Shown piece by piece: positions 9,673-23,194 of a stretch of DNA of 34,671 nucleotides (position 1 is its first letter; every line of letters starts with the position of its first letter). The notes below the pieces were generated by a model. It was not told the DNA's origin and searched no databases. It worked only from the letters and a program-made list of their open reading frames with translations. A program made the translations under genes and the position numbers. Origin of the DNA: Bryobacteraceae bacterium (lineage in GTDB: Bacteria; Acidobacteriota; Terriglobia; Bryobacterales; Bryobacteraceae). The stretch is taken from positions 1 to 34,671 of the forward strand of contig JAPWUP010000019.1 of assembly GCA_028275505.1 (NCBI GenBank), in the 5' to 3' direction.

Positions 9673-11832
9673 TTACTCGACCACGAGCACTTCGTACTCA
9701 TCCAGCCGCGGCAAGCTGACCTGGATACGCCCGCCCTGGCGGCGGAAATCCAGCGTGCGATTCGCCACCAGCGCCCTGACGCTGCGCGCCGGCGCGACGC
9801 CTTCCAGCTCCACCGTGATGTTCGTCAAGGGCACGATGCGCTGGATCGGCCGCGTCATCTCACCGGTGAAGTTGAGCAGATGCACGAGCCGGCGTCGTCC
9901 GTTTTCCTGCGAGCGCAGGACTACTTCCACCGAGCCGGGCGCATTTTCCAGCCGCACAGGCGCAGGCGCCAGCTCGCGAACCAGGTTGCCGACCAGAGCC
10001 AGGTGCTCGCTCATGTGAAAGCCCTGGATCGAGTTGCCCAAATCGCCCGCCACATAGACTGCACGACCTTTGCCGGCGCGGTGGAGCACCACGGCGGGGT
10101 CTTCGGAAACCTCGGGCACGCCATCGTATTGTCCCGCCAGCGGCCGCGTGAAGTACAGCGCCGTCTGTCCCTGGCCTCCTCGCACGCGCAGGTGGTAGAT
10201 CATGGCCGGAATCAACTGGCGCCGGAAGCCCGGCAGCAGATCGGGAGCGCCTGCGGCCGCCTGCATGAAGTCCCAGCGCTTGGGCCCGACGATCCGCTTG
10301 CCATCGTGCACGCCGAAGACATCCGCCAGCGCGAAGTCTTCGCGGCGCACGCCGGTTTCATCGTAGAGCGAGGTTTCGAAAGTGGCCACCAGGTTGCCGC
10401 CCGCCTGCACGTACGAGCGCAGGCGATCTGCGACCTGCGCGCTCATGCAGGCCACGTTGGGCAGTACGATGAGCGCGTAACGCTCCAGTCGCTCGCGGGC
10501 CAGCGATTCGTCGTCAATCACGTCGAACGGCGTATGGGAACGCACCAGCGCCTCGGCCAGCCCGTTGAACTCCCCGTCCAGATTGCCCACTTCACTGCGG
10601 GCCGGCACGCGGTCCACGTCAATCAACTGCGCGTCGGCGCCCGCATAAAAGCTTGCGGTCAGGTCGGACCAGACCAGCGCCACGCGCGCCTCGGACCGTG
10701 TTCCCACGAAATATTTGGCGTTCCGCTCCACGAACCGGTTCATGGCGGCCATGGCGTCGGTCTCGGGTAGCGCCGCTTCGAAGGGCGAGAAAGCCAGCCA
10801 CACGCTGGCGCCGTTGGCGATCGAGTCGGCGTAAAGCAGGCGCAGCTCGGGCGCGGGCAGGATCGAAAACGTCCACGGCTTGTGGGCGGCGGCGGCGAAA
10901 ATCACGCGCGGCTTGTCCGGCGCCTGTGTTTCCAGCAAGCGCGCCGTCAGGCCGGCTTTCCAAAGCGAGGTGCGCGTAAGGTCGCCGTAAATGAAACCGC
11001 CCTCGCTGCCCAGCAGATCCTGCGCTTGGACGAGAACGCGGTTGAAGCGTCCGGTGGCCCAGTTGCCTCCGCGCACGCCGCCGTTCATGTAAAAGGCGAT
11101 CTCGGGGTTGACGGACTTGATTACGCGGCGCGAATCGCGCAGGAAGTCCGCCAGGCTGCGCGCCTGAAATTCCATCAGGGTGGCGAACGCACGGCCGCGT
11201 CGCTCGCGTTTGGAAGGCATCTCACCGCCGTACAGCTTGCGATACTTTTCGCGGCAGTACCGGCAGTAGCAGGTTTCCGCGAAGAAGACCGGACCGTCGT
11301 AGAAAATGCCATCTATCGGGTAAGCGCACAGATCGCGCAGGACCTGGAAGACCCATTCCCGCCACGGGCTGTTCACGCACAGCGAGGTGCCCGTTTGATA
11401 AATGCCCTCGAGTGGGCGTCCCTGCTCGGTGATCTGGACCCAGTCCGGGTGACGGCGGGCGAATTCGTGGTTGAACCAGTGCACGTTGAAATAGATGAAC
11501 ACGCGCAGCCCGCGCGCCTTGGCTTCCGGCAGGTACTGTTTCAGATAGTCGGGATTGACGCGGCTGGCCACACGGCTGGCGAAGAAGAAGCCTTCGTCGT
11601 CCAGACCCTTGCGATGCTGCATGACGGCAAGGTGCTCGGCGTTGAAGCCCAGTCGCGCCTTCAGTGCAGCCGATTCCGCGGGCGACTCGGCGATCCCCGG
11701 ATGATAATCGGTCAGCAGGTGAATGATGCGCAGGGGCTCGCGTTCCCACCAGGGAACGCTCTGACCGCAGGCAAGACCGGCCAGCATCAGCAGCGCCGGC
11801 GCGAACGTGAGGTGCAGTGGATGGCGTGTCAT
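9673..11832 (-). CDS. Secreted TIM-barrel glycoside-hydrolase-like protein with a beta-galactosidase-trimerisation-like domain
   Basis: A 719-residue exported protein with an N-terminal signal (LTFAPALLMLAGLACGQ). Residues 35-400 look like a TIM barrel of the alpha-amylase/GH42 type: GFNAEHLAVM, GLRVFIYFNVHWFN, YPIDGIFYDGPVF followed by a CYCRYC cysteine cluster, then NPEIAFYMNGG. Residues 410-560 match the flavodoxin-like trimerisation domain of GH42 enzymes (ALIVLPNVACMSAQVADRL, YVQAGGNLVATFET). A C-terminal beta domain ends the protein. The substrate is unknown, and Asp or Glu residues in YDGP may be catalytic. An AGAGA-type ribosome binding site precedes the ATG. It sits in a tight operon between a GT2 gene (12 bases) and the triple-RidA gene (4 bases), which points to surface or secreted glycan as substrate. 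Confidence 0.75.
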   Translation of the reverse strand: MTRHPLHLTFAPALLMLAGLACGQSVPWWEREPLRIIHLLTDYHPGIAESPAESAALKARLGFNAEHLAVMQHRKGLDDEGFFFASRVASRVNPDYLKQYLPEAKARGLRVFIYFNVHWFNHEFARRHPDWVQITEQGRPLEGIYQTGTSLCVNSPWREWVFQVLRDLCAYPIDGIFYDGPVFFAETCYCRYCREKYRKLYGGEMPSKRERRGRAFATLMEFQARSLADFLRDSRRVIKSVNPEIAFYMNGGVRGGNWATGRFNRVLVQAQDLLGSEGGFIYGDLTRTSLWKAGLTARLLETQAPDKPRVIFAAAAHKPWTFSILPAPELRLLYADSIANGASVWLAFSPFEAALPETDAMAAMNRFVERNAKYFVGTRSEARVALVWSDLTASFYAGADAQLIDVDRVPARSEVGNLDGEFNGLAEALVRSHTPFDVIDDESLARERLERYALIVLPNVACMSAQVADRLRSYVQAGGNLVATFETSLYDETGVRREDFALADVFGVHDGKRIVGPKRWDFMQAAAGAPDLLPGFRRQLIPAMIYHLRVRGGQGQTALYFTRPLAGQYDGVPEVSEDPAVVLHRAGKGRAVYVAGDLGNSIQGFHMSEHLALVGNLVRELAPAPVRLENAPGSVEVVLRSQENGRRRLVHLLNFTGEMTRPIQRIVPLTNITVELEGVAPARSVRALVANRTLDFRRQGGRIQVSLPRLDEYEVLVVE

Positions 11833-11844
11833 GGGATGATCTCT

Positions 11845-12855
11845 TTATCTTTGCCTCGCGGGCGGCGCGCCGGCAAGCAGGAAGTACAGGCGCCAGTAGG
11901 CGTCCCAGCCCGTCGTCCGTTGGATCTTGAGGATTTGCCGTTCGCCCTCGTTCAGGACCGCCTCGAGCAACCCGCGCTCCGCCTGTACAGAAGAGGCGCG
12001 GATTGAATCGAACATTTTCATTCCTTCCTGTTTCCCTCGGATCCAGGCCGCGAACGCGCCCCGCCGCAGCGCCAGCGCCCCCCACAGCAGTTGCGCGGCC
12101 AGCACCGCCCGCCCGTACCTGCGTTTCCAGTCCGCCGGGTAGTGTTTGGCCACGAGCAGGAGTTGGTTGCGCGCGATCAGGCGCACGGTGGCGGCGCTCC
12201 AGCGGCCCAGCGTGGCGCTGCCCGCGTGGCGGCCACGCGCCTGCGGAACGTAAAGGCCGCGGATCCCGCGCACCGCGCAGCGCAGGCAGAACTCCACGTC
12301 TTCGAGGTACGAGCCGAAGCGTTCATCCAACGGGCCCGTCTTTTCGAACAGCTCGCGTCGCAGCAGGATGGCGGTGAATCCTGCGAAGGCAATCGCGCGG
12401 GCCTGATCCCAGTCCGGCCCGTCCAGCCGTCCGGAGCCCGCCCGCCACGCCGTTGCGCCCCGGCAGACCAAGTCGAAGGTCCCGTCCAGTCGCCGCGGAT
12501 CGGATTCCGAGAGGAGCTTGCCGCAGGCAAACCAGGCGCCGTTTGCCTCTGCGGCCCTCACCAGCCGCTCCAGCCAGTCGGCCTCCGGCGTCACGTCGTT
12601 GTTCAACAGCGCGACCCATTCGTGGCGGCAACGCGTCAGGCCTGCGTTCACGGCCGCTGCGAACCCCGCGTGCTCGCGGAGTTGGACGACCTCCGCTCCC
12701 AGGCTGGCGGCCGCCTCCGCGCTGCCATCCGTCGAGCCGTCATCCGCCACGACGATCTGCGCGGGCGTCAGGGTTTGCCCGCGCAGCCGGGACAGCAGGG
12801 ACACCAGCCGCGCGCGGCCGTTCCAGTTGGGGATCAGGACGCTGACCGGCTCCAT
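11845..12855 (-). CDS. Family 2 glycosyltransferase (rhamnosyltransferase-like)
   Basis: A 336-residue GT-A fold enzyme that probably transfers a sugar from a nucleotide donor onto a lipid-linked or protein-linked glycan at the inner membrane. VSVLIPNWNG begins the fold. VADDGSTDGS binds the nucleotide, and LLNNDVTPEADW (about residues 83-94) carries the metal-binding NND in place of DxD. YLEDVEFCLR is the usual GT2 catalytic-base region. The C-terminal 80 residues are basic and helical, without a clear membrane helix. The gene starts three bases after the preceding GT2 gene and is followed by the glycoside-hydrolase-like gene. The sugar specificity cannot be read. Confidence 0.9.
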   Translation of the reverse strand: MEPVSVLIPNWNGRARLVSLLSRLRGQTLTPAQIVVADDGSTDGSAEAAASLGAEVVQLREHAGFAAAVNAGLTRCRHEWVALLNNDVTPEADWLERLVRAAEANGAWFACGKLLSESDPRRLDGTFDLVCRGATAWRAGSGRLDGPDWDQARAIAFAGFTAILLRRELFEKTGPLDERFGSYLEDVEFCLRCAVRGIRGLYVPQARGRHAGSATLGRWSAATVRLIARNQLLLVAKHYPADWKRRYGRAVLAAQLLWGALALRRGAFAAWIRGKQEGMKMFDSIRASSVQAERGLLEAVLNEGERQILKIQRTTGWDAYWRLYFLLAGAPPARQR

Positions 12856-12858
12856 GAC

Positions 12859-13560
12859 TCAGCCGTTCTGCGGCGCCGGTTTCCTGCTGCGACGGAAGCG
12901 CTTCTTGACCAGAAACCAAAGGTTGTAAATCCCGTCCCGCCACGGATTCAGCTTCTTCTCGCCCAGCCGCGACGAGTACAGGATGGAAATCTCGCCGAAG
13001 CGGATGCGCGGATTTTTCAGAGCCTCGATCTTGATCTCCTCGGAAAAGGCCATGCCGTCGGCTTCCAGCGTCATTTCCTCCAGGATGGAGCGCCGGAAAA
13101 CCCACATGCCGGATTGCGAATCGCGCACCCAGCGCAGATAGAGCAGGGACATGGCCAGCGAAAGAATCAGATTGCCGATCTTGTGTTTCAGGCTCATGGC
13201 CTTGGGATCGCGCACGGGGAACCGCGAGGCATTCAGAAAATCCACTTCCAGATGCAGGAAGGCTTCCAGCAGGTAGGAAATGGCGTCCACCGGGTAGCTG
13301 TGATCGCCGTCCAGCGTGACGATCAGGTCGCCGGTGGCGTGCGCGAATCCCTTGCGGTAGGCGCGTCCGTAGCCCCGCACGTCCTCGCGGATCACTTCGG
13401 CGCCGAGGCTGCGGGCGATTTCCGAAGTGCGGTCGGTGGAACCGTTGTCCACCACGATCACCTGATCCACGAAGGCGGGCATGCGTCGTAGCACTTGCTC
13501 GATGCCCTGTTCTTCGTTCAGGCAGGGGATCACGACCGTGATGCGGTGGCCTTTGTACAC
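12859..13560 (-). CDS. Family 2 glycosyltransferase, dolichol-phosphate-mannose-synthase-like
   Basis: A 233-residue GT2 enzyme of the polyprenyl-phosphate-sugar synthase type. ITVVIPCLNEEQGIEQVL opens the domain, VVDNGSTDRT follows, and LDGDHSYP holds the DxD metal-binding motif (residues 84-86). DSQSGMWVFRR and ADGMAFSEEIKIEA are usual for this group. There is no C-terminal membrane pair, so the soluble short form is likely. It probably makes a polyprenyl-phosphate-linked sugar for the surface glycan. The start is a GTG at 13558-13560 with only a weak ribosome binding site. It is the first gene of the minus-strand group and divergent from the small secreted protein gene at 13602. Confidence 0.88.
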   Translation of the reverse strand: MYKGHRITVVIPCLNEEQGIEQVLRRMPAFVDQVIVVDNGSTDRTSEIARSLGAEVIREDVRGYGRAYRKGFAHATGDLIVTLDGDHSYPVDAISYLLEAFLHLEVDFLNASRFPVRDPKAMSLKHKIGNLILSLAMSLLYLRWVRDSQSGMWVFRRSILEEMTLEADGMAFSEEIKIEALKNPRIRFGEISILYSSRLGEKKLNPWRDGIYNLWFLVKKRFRRSRKPAPQNG

Positions 13561-13601
13561 GGCTCTGATTGCGTGTCTTCGAAGCTATCATAGTGAATGT
13601 C

Positions 13602-14090
13602 ATGAAACGCTGGTTGTGGTGGCTGGCCTTGCCGCTGGTGGCGGCCCAACCTTCCGAACTGTCGCGCATCCGGACGATCTACCTGTTGCCCATGGGACAT
13701 GGTCTGGATCAGTACCTGGCTGGAAGTCTGACGCGCATGGGCGTCTTTCAGGTGGTGGCCGATCCCAAACAGGCCGACGCCGTGTTCACGGATCACCTGG
13801 GCGAGGCTTTCGAGCAGCGCATGAACGAGCTTTACCCGCCGCAACCGGCGCAGGCCCCATCCGAAAAGCAGGATCAACAGGAGAGCAGGAGCAAGGCCGC
13901 CGCGCGCGAAGAGGCGCCCCGGATTTCGAGCTGGGGACGCGGTCGCGGCACGATTTTTCTGGTGGATGCGCGCACGCGGATGGTGCTGTGGTCCACCTAC
14001 CAGCGCCCGCGCAATTCCTCGCCCGACGAAATTGAGCGCACGGCGCGGCGCATTGCGGAACGCCTCAAGCGCGATCTGCAGAAAAAGTGA
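13602..14090 (+). CDS. Small secreted protein of unknown function
   Basis: A protein of 162 residues with a signal peptide (MKRWLWWLALPLVAAQ). The mature part starts with IRTIYLLPMGHGLDQYLAGSL, then FQVVADPKQADAVFTDHLG, and ends with GTIFLVDARTRMVLWSTYQRP before a basic helix. I associate similar small proteins with Acidobacteria, but no function is known to me, and that association is memory rather than a search. The middle, about residues 85-115, is a charged low-complexity segment. ATG 13602 is chosen for the signal peptide. It is the only plus-strand gene between the two minus-strand glycan groups, and its last 26 bases overlap the end of the convergent GT2-GT4 gene. Confidence 0.75.
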   Translation: MKRWLWWLALPLVAAQPSELSRIRTIYLLPMGHGLDQYLAGSLTRMGVFQVVADPKQADAVFTDHLGEAFEQRMNELYPPQPAQAPSEKQDQQESRSKAAAREEAPRISSWGRGRGTIFLVDARTRMVLWSTYQRPRNSSPDEIERTARRIAERLKRDLQKK

Positions 14091-19582: not shown

Positions 19583-19618
19583 ATGCGCTGCAGTACTTTC
19601 ACATTCGGGGAAAGGGTC

Positions 19619-20119
19619 ATGCAAACAAGGGGTCACGCCACACTCTGGCTCGCAGTCTCTCTTCGCTGCTTGCTCGCCGCGCTGGGCTTTAGCCAGGAGT
19701 TCCGCGCCACCCTATCTGGTCGCGTCTTCGACCCGACGGGCGCCGCGGTCCCTAACGCGCGCGTGGAAGCAGTCAACGTCGCCACCAACGAAACCACGAC
19801 GGCGACCACCGACGTCTCGGGCGCCTACACGCTGCCCTTCCTGCGCCCGGGCACGTATAGGCTGACGGTCACCGCCTCCGGTTTCAAAACATTCACCCGT
19901 GAAAACATCGTTCTGCAAGTCGGCCAGATCGCCGGCATTGACGTAAAGCTCGAGGTCGGCGAGGTGGCCGAACGGATCGAAGTCACCGCGCAAGCCGCGC
20001 TACTGGAAACGCAGACCGCCAGCCGCAGCGGCATCGTCAACACTACGCAGGTCACCGAACTGCCACTCAACACGCGCAACCCTTTCATGCTGGGCGCCAT
20101 GATGTCGGGCGTCATCTAG
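19619..20119 (+). CDS. TonB-dependent receptor, N-terminal part up to an in-frame TAG
   Basis: These 166 residues are the front of an Oar-like outer-membrane receptor. A signal peptide (LWLAVSLRCLLAALGFSQ) is followed by a carboxypeptidase-regulatory-like beta domain (residues 28-112: LSGRVFDPTGAAVPNARVE, SGAYTLPFLRPGTYRLTV) and the start of the plug (LPLNTRNPFMLGAMMSGVI). Translation then meets TAG at 20117-20119. The frame continues open on the other side without a shift for another 1,024 codons, so this and the next entry are one ancestral gene. The start ATG has an excellent purine-rich ribosome binding site. If the stop is real, the product is a periplasmic fragment with no barrel. Confidence 0.85.
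   Translation: MQTRGHATLWLAVSLRCLLAALGFSQEFRATLSGRVFDPTGAAVPNARVEAVNVATNETTTATTDVSGAYTLPFLRPGTYRLTVTASGFKTFTRENIVLQVGQIAGIDVKLEVGEVAERIEVTAQAALLETQTASRSGIVNTTQVTELPLNTRNPFMLGAMMSGVI
20117..20119 (+). other. In-frame amber (TAG) codon splitting the TonB-dependent receptor
   Basis: TAG at codon 167 of the frame that starts at 19619, context ATC TAG CGG. Upstream and downstream sequence are in the same frame and encode adjoining parts of the plug domain. One base change would restore Tyr, Gln, Lys, Glu, Trp, Leu or Ser. A 6-bp hairpin (GCCGTT/AACGGC with loop CGAT, 20145-20160) lies 25 bases downstream, but it is in conserved coding sequence and is probably incidental. Confidence 0.9.
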
Positions 20120-20137
20120 CGGGGCAACGCCATCTGG

Positions 20138-23100
20138 ATGCGGCCGTTCGATAACGGCGCCATCGCCGAGTGGGTGGTCAACGGCGGCCGCCAGCGCCGC
20201 AACGAGTTCCTCCTCGACGGCGCGCCCAACAACGCCCAGATGGGAGGCAACAACATCGCTTACGTGCCTATCGTGGACGCGGTGCAGGAATTCAACATCC
20301 AGACCAACACGTACGACGCCCAGTACGGCCACACCGGCGGCGGCATCTTCAATGTCGTGCTCAAGAGCGGCACCAGCGATTTCCACGCCACCGCCTGGGA
20401 GTTCATGCGCCGGCAAAGCTGGGACGCCAACACATTCCAGAACAACGCGATCGGCGCCAAGCGCCCCGACCACAAACTGGATCAGTACGGATTCCAGTTC
20501 GACGGCCCGGCCTACATCCCGGGCATCCTGAAGAAGGACAGTCGTGTCCGCCTGTTCTACCTCGGCAGCTTCGAGCGTTATCACGAGCTGTGGCCTCAGT
20601 TCCTGCGCAACTCCTACCCCGAGCCGGAAATGCGCAACGGCGACTTCAGCAAGCTGGTCAACGCCGACGGCTCGCCCATCTTCATTTACAACCCGTTTAC
20701 CACGCGGTTCGACGCCAACCAGAATCCTATTCGTGATCCGTTCCCGGGCAATATCATCCCGCCCAGCATGATCAATCCCATCGCCCGCAACGTTACCAAA
20801 TACATGCCCCTGCCCAACGCCAAGACGCCGAACGTACGTTACTCCACCCAGAATCTGATTCACGAAAAATACGCTGCTGAAGATAACTTCTATAACCTGA
20901 TTTTGAAGTTCGACTGGAACTTCGGCGACCGCCATCGCGCCTTCGTACGCCACGCCTCCAATGACCGGACCGAGGACCGCTGCATCAACGGCATTTGTGA
21001 AGGCCCGGGCATGAACGGCCAGCAGCCCTTCCAGCGCATCAATGACGCCTACGTGGTGGACTGGGTCGGCACCATGACGCCCACCCTGATCCTGAACGCC
21101 CGCCTTTCTCACAACCGCTTTATCGAGAAGGGCTACGGGCGGGGCAACGTGGGCTTCGATCTGACCTCGCTAGGCCTTCCCGCCTCGCTGATCAACCAGC
21201 TGCCCACTCCGCGGTATTTCGGGGTGTGGAACTTCGACGGCTACTCCACGATGGGCCGTTACCAGTCCATCAACATCACCAATACCTATAACCTGCAAGG
21301 CAACGCTACCAAGATCTGGCGCACTCATACGATCAAGGTGGGCGCCGATCTCCGGCGGATCCACTACATCCTCCAGAACACAGGTAATATTTTGCAATTC
21401 GATCACAGCGCCGCCTGGACCCGCCGGCTGTGGAACCAGGCCGAGGTCAACTCGGGCGACGGCTACGCGACTTTCCTGCTCGGACTTTCCGGCGGCTCCT
21501 CCAACTATCCTTTGTTCCCCTTCTTCCGTCAGTGGTACTTTGCTCCGTATCTTCAGGACGACTGGAAGATCACCCGCCGGCTCACGCTGAACCTGGGCGT
21601 ACGGTGGGACTACAACGGCCCGCCGGATGAAAAGTACAACCGGTTGAACCGCGGTTTCGATCCCACCGTGCGCAACCCCGTGGTGGACCAGATCCCGCCC
21701 GCCATGCTGGCGCAGTACCCGCAGTTGCGCGACCTGAAGGGCGGCCTGCTGTTTGCCGGCGTTGGCGGACTGCCGCGCGCCGCGGGCGATCGCGACCTGA
21801 ACAACTGGCAGCCGCGCATCGGCGCCGCCTACCAAATCAGCTCGAAGCTGGTCATGCGCGGCGGTTTCGGCATTTACTACTCCAACCCCAGCAACGACTA
21901 CTTGCAAACCGTGGGCTTCTCCACCAGCACTCCGATTGTCAACAGCCTGGACGGCGGCCGCACGCCCATCCCCAACGTTTTGAGCAATCCCTACCCGTCG
22001 GGAATCAACGTCCCTACGGGCGCTTCGCTGGGGCCGCTCACCTTCGTGGGCCGCAACACGAGCTGGTTCAATCCGCGTTTCCGCATCCCGTCCGTGCGGC
22101 AGTTCTCCTTCGGCTTCCAGTACCAGGTCACGCGCACCGCTACTGTGGATCTCTCCTACATCGGCAGCCGCACGGTGGATGAAAACGACTCCAAGGCGTA
22201 CAACATCCCCAGCCTGGAGTTCCGCAAGCAGTGCAACCTGCTCGAGGGCGGGAACCCTGCTTACTGCGACGCCGCTCTGCCCAATCCTTTCCGCGACGTG
22301 CCAGCTTTCGCCGGGACCGGCTTCTACACCGCCAACACGCTTTCCCGTTACCAGCTCAATCGCCCGTTCCCGCAGTTCAGCGGCGACATGACCGAGTTGG
22401 GCCGCAACGACCAGCGCATCTGGCACAACGGCCTGCAAGTCAGCTACAACCAGCGCACGGGCCGCGACGTCACGCTGCTCGTCAATTACACACTTTCCAA
22501 GACCATCGAGCGCACCGGCTGGCTGGATCCCTTCGCCGGCGTCATGCAGCAGGGTCCGATCACTTACGACCGGCTGCACATGTTCAAGGCCACGGCCGTG
22601 TATGAGCTGCCCTTCGGCAAGGGCCGTCGCTGGGGTTCCGGCGCCACGGGCCTGGTCAGCAAGCTCATCAGCGGATGGGAGCTGACCACGTTCATCAACA
22701 CCACCTCGGGCGAGCCCATGGACCTGCCGGGCAACGTGATCATCCTCAAAGACCCGCGGGTCAAGCCCGACTGGAGCCAGGAGCGCGTCCGCTTCTGGAG
22801 TCCCTGCGTGCTGCGGCAGTACAACGACGGCAGCATCCGACCGCAGCCCTACAGCATCGCGGCCGGCTGCGGCACGGACTTCGCCAACTACGCGTGGTTG
22901 ATGACGGCCAGCTACGCGCCGCGCTATACGCCCTACCGCACTTCCTGGATCCGCTCCCACGCCTGGTTCAGCATGGACGCTTCGCTGAACAAGACCACCA
23001 GGATCGGTGAGCGCGCCCGGTTCCAGTTCGGAATCGAAGCTTTCAACGCGCTCAACCACACCAACTTCACCTGGGAGCGCGGCACCACCGATCCCAACAG

Positions 23101-23194
23101 CCCGAACTTCGGCCTGATCTACTTGAGCCAGTCGTCCCTGACCAACAACGGTTACCCGCGGCAGGTCCAGGTGCGGCTGAAGTTCTACTGGTGA
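20138..23194 (+). CDS. TonB-dependent receptor, rest of plug and beta-barrel (same frame, after the TAG)
   Basis: A 1,018-residue open frame from the first ATG after the amber codon. It carries the remainder of the plug (RPFDNGAIAEW, NEFLLDGAPNNAQMGGNN, YVPIVDAVQEFNIQTN, YGHTGGGIFNVVLKSG) and a large beta-barrel with alternating aromatic strands. It ends in the aromatic-terminated strand QVQVRLKFYW that BAM-assembled barrels need. Nothing in the barrel looks decayed, as there are no further stops or frameshifts. Without readthrough or a separate signal peptide this part could not be exported. Relatives of this size in Acidobacteria are thought to import oligosaccharides or other large substrates. 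The gene ends at a hairpin shared with the convergent deacetylase gene. Confidence 0.88.
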   Translation: MRPFDNGAIAEWVVNGGRQRRNEFLLDGAPNNAQMGGNNIAYVPIVDAVQEFNIQTNTYDAQYGHTGGGIFNVVLKSGTSDFHATAWEFMRRQSWDANTFQNNAIGAKRPDHKLDQYGFQFDGPAYIPGILKKDSRVRLFYLGSFERYHELWPQFLRNSYPEPEMRNGDFSKLVNADGSPIFIYNPFTTRFDANQNPIRDPFPGNIIPPSMINPIARNVTKYMPLPNAKTPNVRYSTQNLIHEKYAAEDNFYNLILKFDWNFGDRHRAFVRHASNDRTEDRCINGICEGPGMNGQQPFQRINDAYVVDWVGTMTPTLILNARLSHNRFIEKGYGRGNVGFDLTSLGLPASLINQLPTPRYFGVWNFDGYSTMGRYQSINITNTYNLQGNATKIWRTHTIKVGADLRRIHYILQNTGNILQFDHSAAWTRRLWNQAEVNSGDGYATFLLGLSGGSSNYPLFPFFRQWYFAPYLQDDWKITRRLTLNLGVRWDYNGPPDEKYNRLNRGFDPTVRNPVVDQIPPAMLAQYPQLRDLKGGLLFAGVGGLPRAAGDRDLNNWQPRIGAAYQISSKLVMRGGFGIYYSNPSNDYLQTVGFSTSTPIVNSLDGGRTPIPNVLSNPYPSGINVPTGASLGPLTFVGRNTSWFNPRFRIPSVRQFSFGFQYQVTRTATVDLSYIGSRTVDENDSKAYNIPSLEFRKQCNLLEGGNPAYCDAALPNPFRDVPAFAGTGFYTANTLSRYQLNRPFPQFSGDMTELGRNDQRIWHNGLQVSYNQRTGRDVTLLVNYTLSKTIERTGWLDPFAGVMQQGPITYDRLHMFKATAVYELPFGKGRRWGSGATGLVSKLISGWELTTFINTTSGEPMDLPGNVIILKDPRVKPDWSQERVRFWSPCVLRQYNDGSIRPQPYSIAAGCGTDFANYAWLMTASYAPRYTPYRTSWIRSHAWFSMDASLNKTTRIGERARFQFGIEAFNALNHTNFTWERGTTDPNSPNFGLIYLSQSSLTNNGYPRQVQVRLKFYW

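Follow-up and report, generated by a model that had tools for sequence, protein, structure and literature searches.

Does a lone amber codon in an otherwise intact receptor gene mark a very recent nonsense mutation, an error in the assembly, or a stop that the ribosome reads through? The question arises in a stretch of 34,671 nucleotides (contig JAPWUP010000019.1, hereafter "the window") from the draft genome of a Bryobacteraceae bacterium, in which the following features bear on the answer.

19619–23194, forward strand: TonB-dependent-receptor-type gene with a CarboxypepD_reg domain and an OMP_b-brl_4 barrel, with one interruption (translation, Pfam, ortholog alignment).
20117–20119, forward strand: in-frame TAG at codon 167 (the same-genus ortholog has TGG; other close homologs have TTC, TTT, TAT or TAC).
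19619–20119, forward strand: predicted truncated product of 166 amino acids, comprising signal peptide, CarboxypepD_reg and the following segment, without the barrel (translation, Pfam; signal peptide by eye).
20138–23194, forward strand: downstream open frame from ATG 20138, 1,018 amino acids, with the whole barrel model and without a signal peptide (ORF list, Pfam).

Translating the frame at 19619–23194 gave 1,191 codons followed by a final TGA, with the TAG at codon 167 as the one internal stop and the sole lesion of this receptor-type gene in the assembly. Aligned to the window by tblastn, the ortholog from a same-genus genome (G002) matched across 19604–23191 in a single frame with exactly one stop and zero frameshifts, such that the preliminary description, which had called 19619–23194 intact save for this codon, holds on both translation and alignment. 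The gene probably starts at ATG 19619, because the stretch just upstream (ttcgggg..agggtcatgc) is conserved in the ortholog. A mechanical ORF caller divided the gene into 19583–20119 and 20138–23194, and the Pfam matches are likewise distributed on the two sides of the stop, with an N-terminal PF13620 (CarboxypepD_reg; E 2.3e-24) in 19583–20116, the PF25183 (OMP_b-brl_4) barrel in 20120–23191 (E 8.5e-165, model positions 1–838 of 838), and a weak TonB_dep_Rec_b-barrel match in the second part of the gene. Judged from its sequence, the predicted product is a TonB-dependent-receptor-type protein of a kind expanded in Acidobacteriota. Its domain order and full-length homology resemble those of the acidobacterial OMP_b-brl_4 receptors with a CarboxypepD_reg N-terminus, from which it differs only by the premature stop; as in those receptors, which have many paralogs per Bryobacteraceae genome, paralogs are numerous here, and the closest records to the gene are draft genomes of Bryobacteraceae and related Acidobacteriota. 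Re-initiation at ATG 20138, only 18 bases past the stop codon, could in principle give a useful split product, but we regard this as extremely improbable. The product would lack the N-terminal domain and would not be an exported receptor because the downstream frame has no signal peptide, and the ATG did not arise in response to the stop, since the uninterrupted ortholog has the same methionine.

We then compared codon 167 across relatives. The G002 ortholog (locus L051/L032) shares 91% amino-acid identity with the window's gene, is 1:1, and sits between genes that agree with the window in order and orientation on both sides; its codon 167 is TGG (Trp). Aligned to the same position, about 60 more distant homologs, among them the closest paralog within the window's own genome (L002), have TTC, TTT, TAT or TAC (Phe/Tyr), and the position sits inside a well-conserved motif (e.g., RNPFMLGAMMSGVTFRGAAIWQRPFD). 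A second same-genus genome (G001, 81% complete) yielded no clear ortholog. A stop at this position was found in neither the ortholog nor any of the approximately 60 homologs, and since it is absent from all of them the TAG is private to the window's genome, one G-to-A transition away from the ortholog's TGG. This is the pattern expected of a young nonsense allele, namely a stop that is absent from orthologs and a single substitution away. The preliminary description had listed relatives carrying the gene without the stop among the observations that would count against its account, and on this comparative side such relatives are what we found.

Pairwise dN/dS against the ortholog was 0.056 upstream of the stop and 0.057 downstream, at the low end of the values for neighbouring genes (0.044–0.211), and amino-acid changes downstream of the stop, polarised with an outgroup (L052), numbered 30 on the window's lineage versus 26 on the ortholog's. 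In a simple Poisson simulation, a clear excess of changes is expected once unconstrained evolution takes up more than about 3% of the branch. Because dN/dS is equally low on both sides and there is no excess of amino-acid changes, any loss of function occurred within roughly the last 3% of the lineage's branch. Together with the single lesion, these values agree with the earlier view that decay has not begun. Taken alone, the low downstream divergence would fit three cases alike: a very young stop, a spurious one, or continued production of the protein.

Of these, we consider it probable that the stop is a nonsense allele or polymorphism of very recent origin rather than a programmed switch. 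On this reading, a single G-to-A transition very recently turned TGG into TAG and left one gene of a large receptor family with a nonsense allele, which may be either fixed or segregating in the sampled population. Translation would end after 166 residues, and because this is ahead of the beta-barrel the allele is most probably null. Its loss may be tolerable given the many related receptors in the genome, and further decay would have lacked time. We infer both that the organism itself carries the mutation and that function is lost through it; the low downstream dN/dS, which is also expected under maintained readthrough, is a point against a null allele.

An assembly or base-call error, or a base from a minority strain, is a possible but unlikely source of the TAG, in which case the organism's gene would be intact with TGG. 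The window's genome (G000) is a metagenome-type draft of 392 contigs (4.66 Mb, 98.9% complete) with an estimated contamination of 3.4%, the stop is a single base from the ortholog codon, and the remainder of the gene is perfectly preserved, all of which suit an error or a strain mixture. On the other side, the gene has no second lesion, and most of the window's main genes align to the ortholog region without a frameshift. Substitution errors are uncommon in short-read consensus sequence, and a two-contig genome of the same family (G010) likewise has a single-stop receptor.

Leaky or programmed amber readthrough that sets the amount of full-length receptor would account for the strong constraint that persists downstream of the stop, but we consider it very unlikely. 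A programmed stop is expected to be conserved at the same site in orthologs, which was not so in the approximately 60 homologs. No tRNA with a CUA anticodon was detected among 40 tRNA genes in G000 or 35 in G002, both of these being incomplete sets that lack tRNA-Tyr and a few others; the suppressor search that the preliminary description had called for has thus come up empty, within a set whose missing tRNA-Tyr leaves some room for readthrough. In G010, a normal tRNA-Tyr (gta) adjoins tRNA-Thr about 1.5 kb from tRNA-Trp, an arrangement which by analogy suggests that the tRNA-Tyr gene of G000 may simply have been lost in an assembly gap. RF1 is intact in G000 (prfA, 552.7 bits, above cut-off), and the three window genes cited earlier as ending in TAG do so (minus-strand ORFs ending at 2002, 6975 and 8451). 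Genome-wide reassignment of TAG, already doubted in the preliminary description, is rejected on the intact RF1, on the use of TAG as a terminator, and on the barrels elsewhere in G000, where just 1 of the 61 scored has an in-frame TAG. A stimulatory 3' hairpin is not indicated either, as the predicted fold of 20120–20240 does not stand out from that of shuffled sequence (fold z-score -0.53).

The tRNA searches also turned up a 7.4 kb array of 31 tRNA genes in G010 (L217, C1:2135037-2142440; ARAGORN), which looks like a mobile-element or phage array and includes two tRNAs whose anticodon loops are unusual (given as 'ta' and 'ttgg'). The same genome carries a tRNA-SeC (tca) at L221 (C1:5279664-5279753), and none was seen in the G000 tRNA search.

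We evaluated how often receptors of this family carry a single in-frame stop. Across the four family genomes scored, this was so for 4 of 244 PF25183 barrel matches (~1.6%), located in G000:C191 (TAG), G002:C36 (TAG), G005:C193 (TAG) and G010 (TGA), and outside this set further cases were found at L050 (TAG) and L094 (TAG, with TAA in a second receptor). Protein kinases, taken as a control family, gave 8 matches in two genomes, too few to be informative. Because receptors are so numerous per genome (in G000, 145 matching segments, with 61 barrel matches scored out of 131 candidates), one or two single-stop receptors per genome are ordinary. The eight stops including the window's comprise 6 TAG, 1 TAA and 1 TGA, and this TAG share is unremarkable because receptor codon usage, with CAG, TAC, TGG, GAG, AAG, TCG and TTG each one step from TAG, already predicts 61–63% TAG (6 of 8 seen versus ~62% expected, P ~0.36). 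TAG enrichment is therefore rejected as a sign of recoding. In a tiny sample chosen post hoc, 3 of the 6 TAGs lie at positions that are usually Tyr in homologs and the window's lies at a Trp/Phe site, residues of a type that a near-cognate tRNA could supply; we regard this pattern as a weak lead. The broader idea it evokes, that amber codons are tolerated at aromatic sites in certain Bryobacteraceae receptors because a near-cognate tRNA reads UAG appreciably and the alleles stay functional at a low level, seems to us highly improbable. Among the three choices offered at the outset by the preliminary description, a very recent nonsense mutation is favoured and a sequencing error or strain mixture possible, while readthrough gains no specific support, given the private stop, the intact RF1, the lack of a detected suppressor tRNA or 3' structure, and the ~1.6% base rate.

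Short-lived in-frame stops in genes under apparent purifying selection have been reported to be widespread in bacteria, and readthrough has also been proposed as a general possibility (Belinky et al. 2021, PMC7918605). The window's gene resembles those cases in its isolated in-frame stop, otherwise intact sequence and low dN/dS, whereas the set analysed there required a stop in at least two species and ours is seen in one genome. The stop fits their short-lived class, and the event is of an already-known kind; the literature search yielded no study of stops in receptors from Acidobacteriota. Should the nonsense allele be real, it illustrates the everyday turnover of a very large receptor family and warns against taking an isolated in-frame stop in a draft genome for recoding, which is rarely the cause. 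Readthrough, if demonstrated, would imply that amber codons are decoded leakily in this family of largely uncultured acidobacteria.

Several of the single-stop receptors can be described further. The second such receptor of G000 (L143, G000:C191, minus strand, barrel at C191:1520-4333) has one in-frame TAG at a site that is Tyr in most paralogs (LMGA*TLSK). Others from Bryobacteraceae, with single in-frame stops that are mostly TAG, are L148 (G002:C36:16842-19397), L149 (G005:C193:10434-12956), L094 and L050, and the stops of L148 and L094 fall at usually-Tyr positions. Elsewhere in the window, gene starts or boundaries are provisional within the region 11793–13669, where the G002 ORF matches over approximately 11793–13132 overlap the window ORFs at 11845–12855 and 12740–13669 but lie in frames other than theirs.
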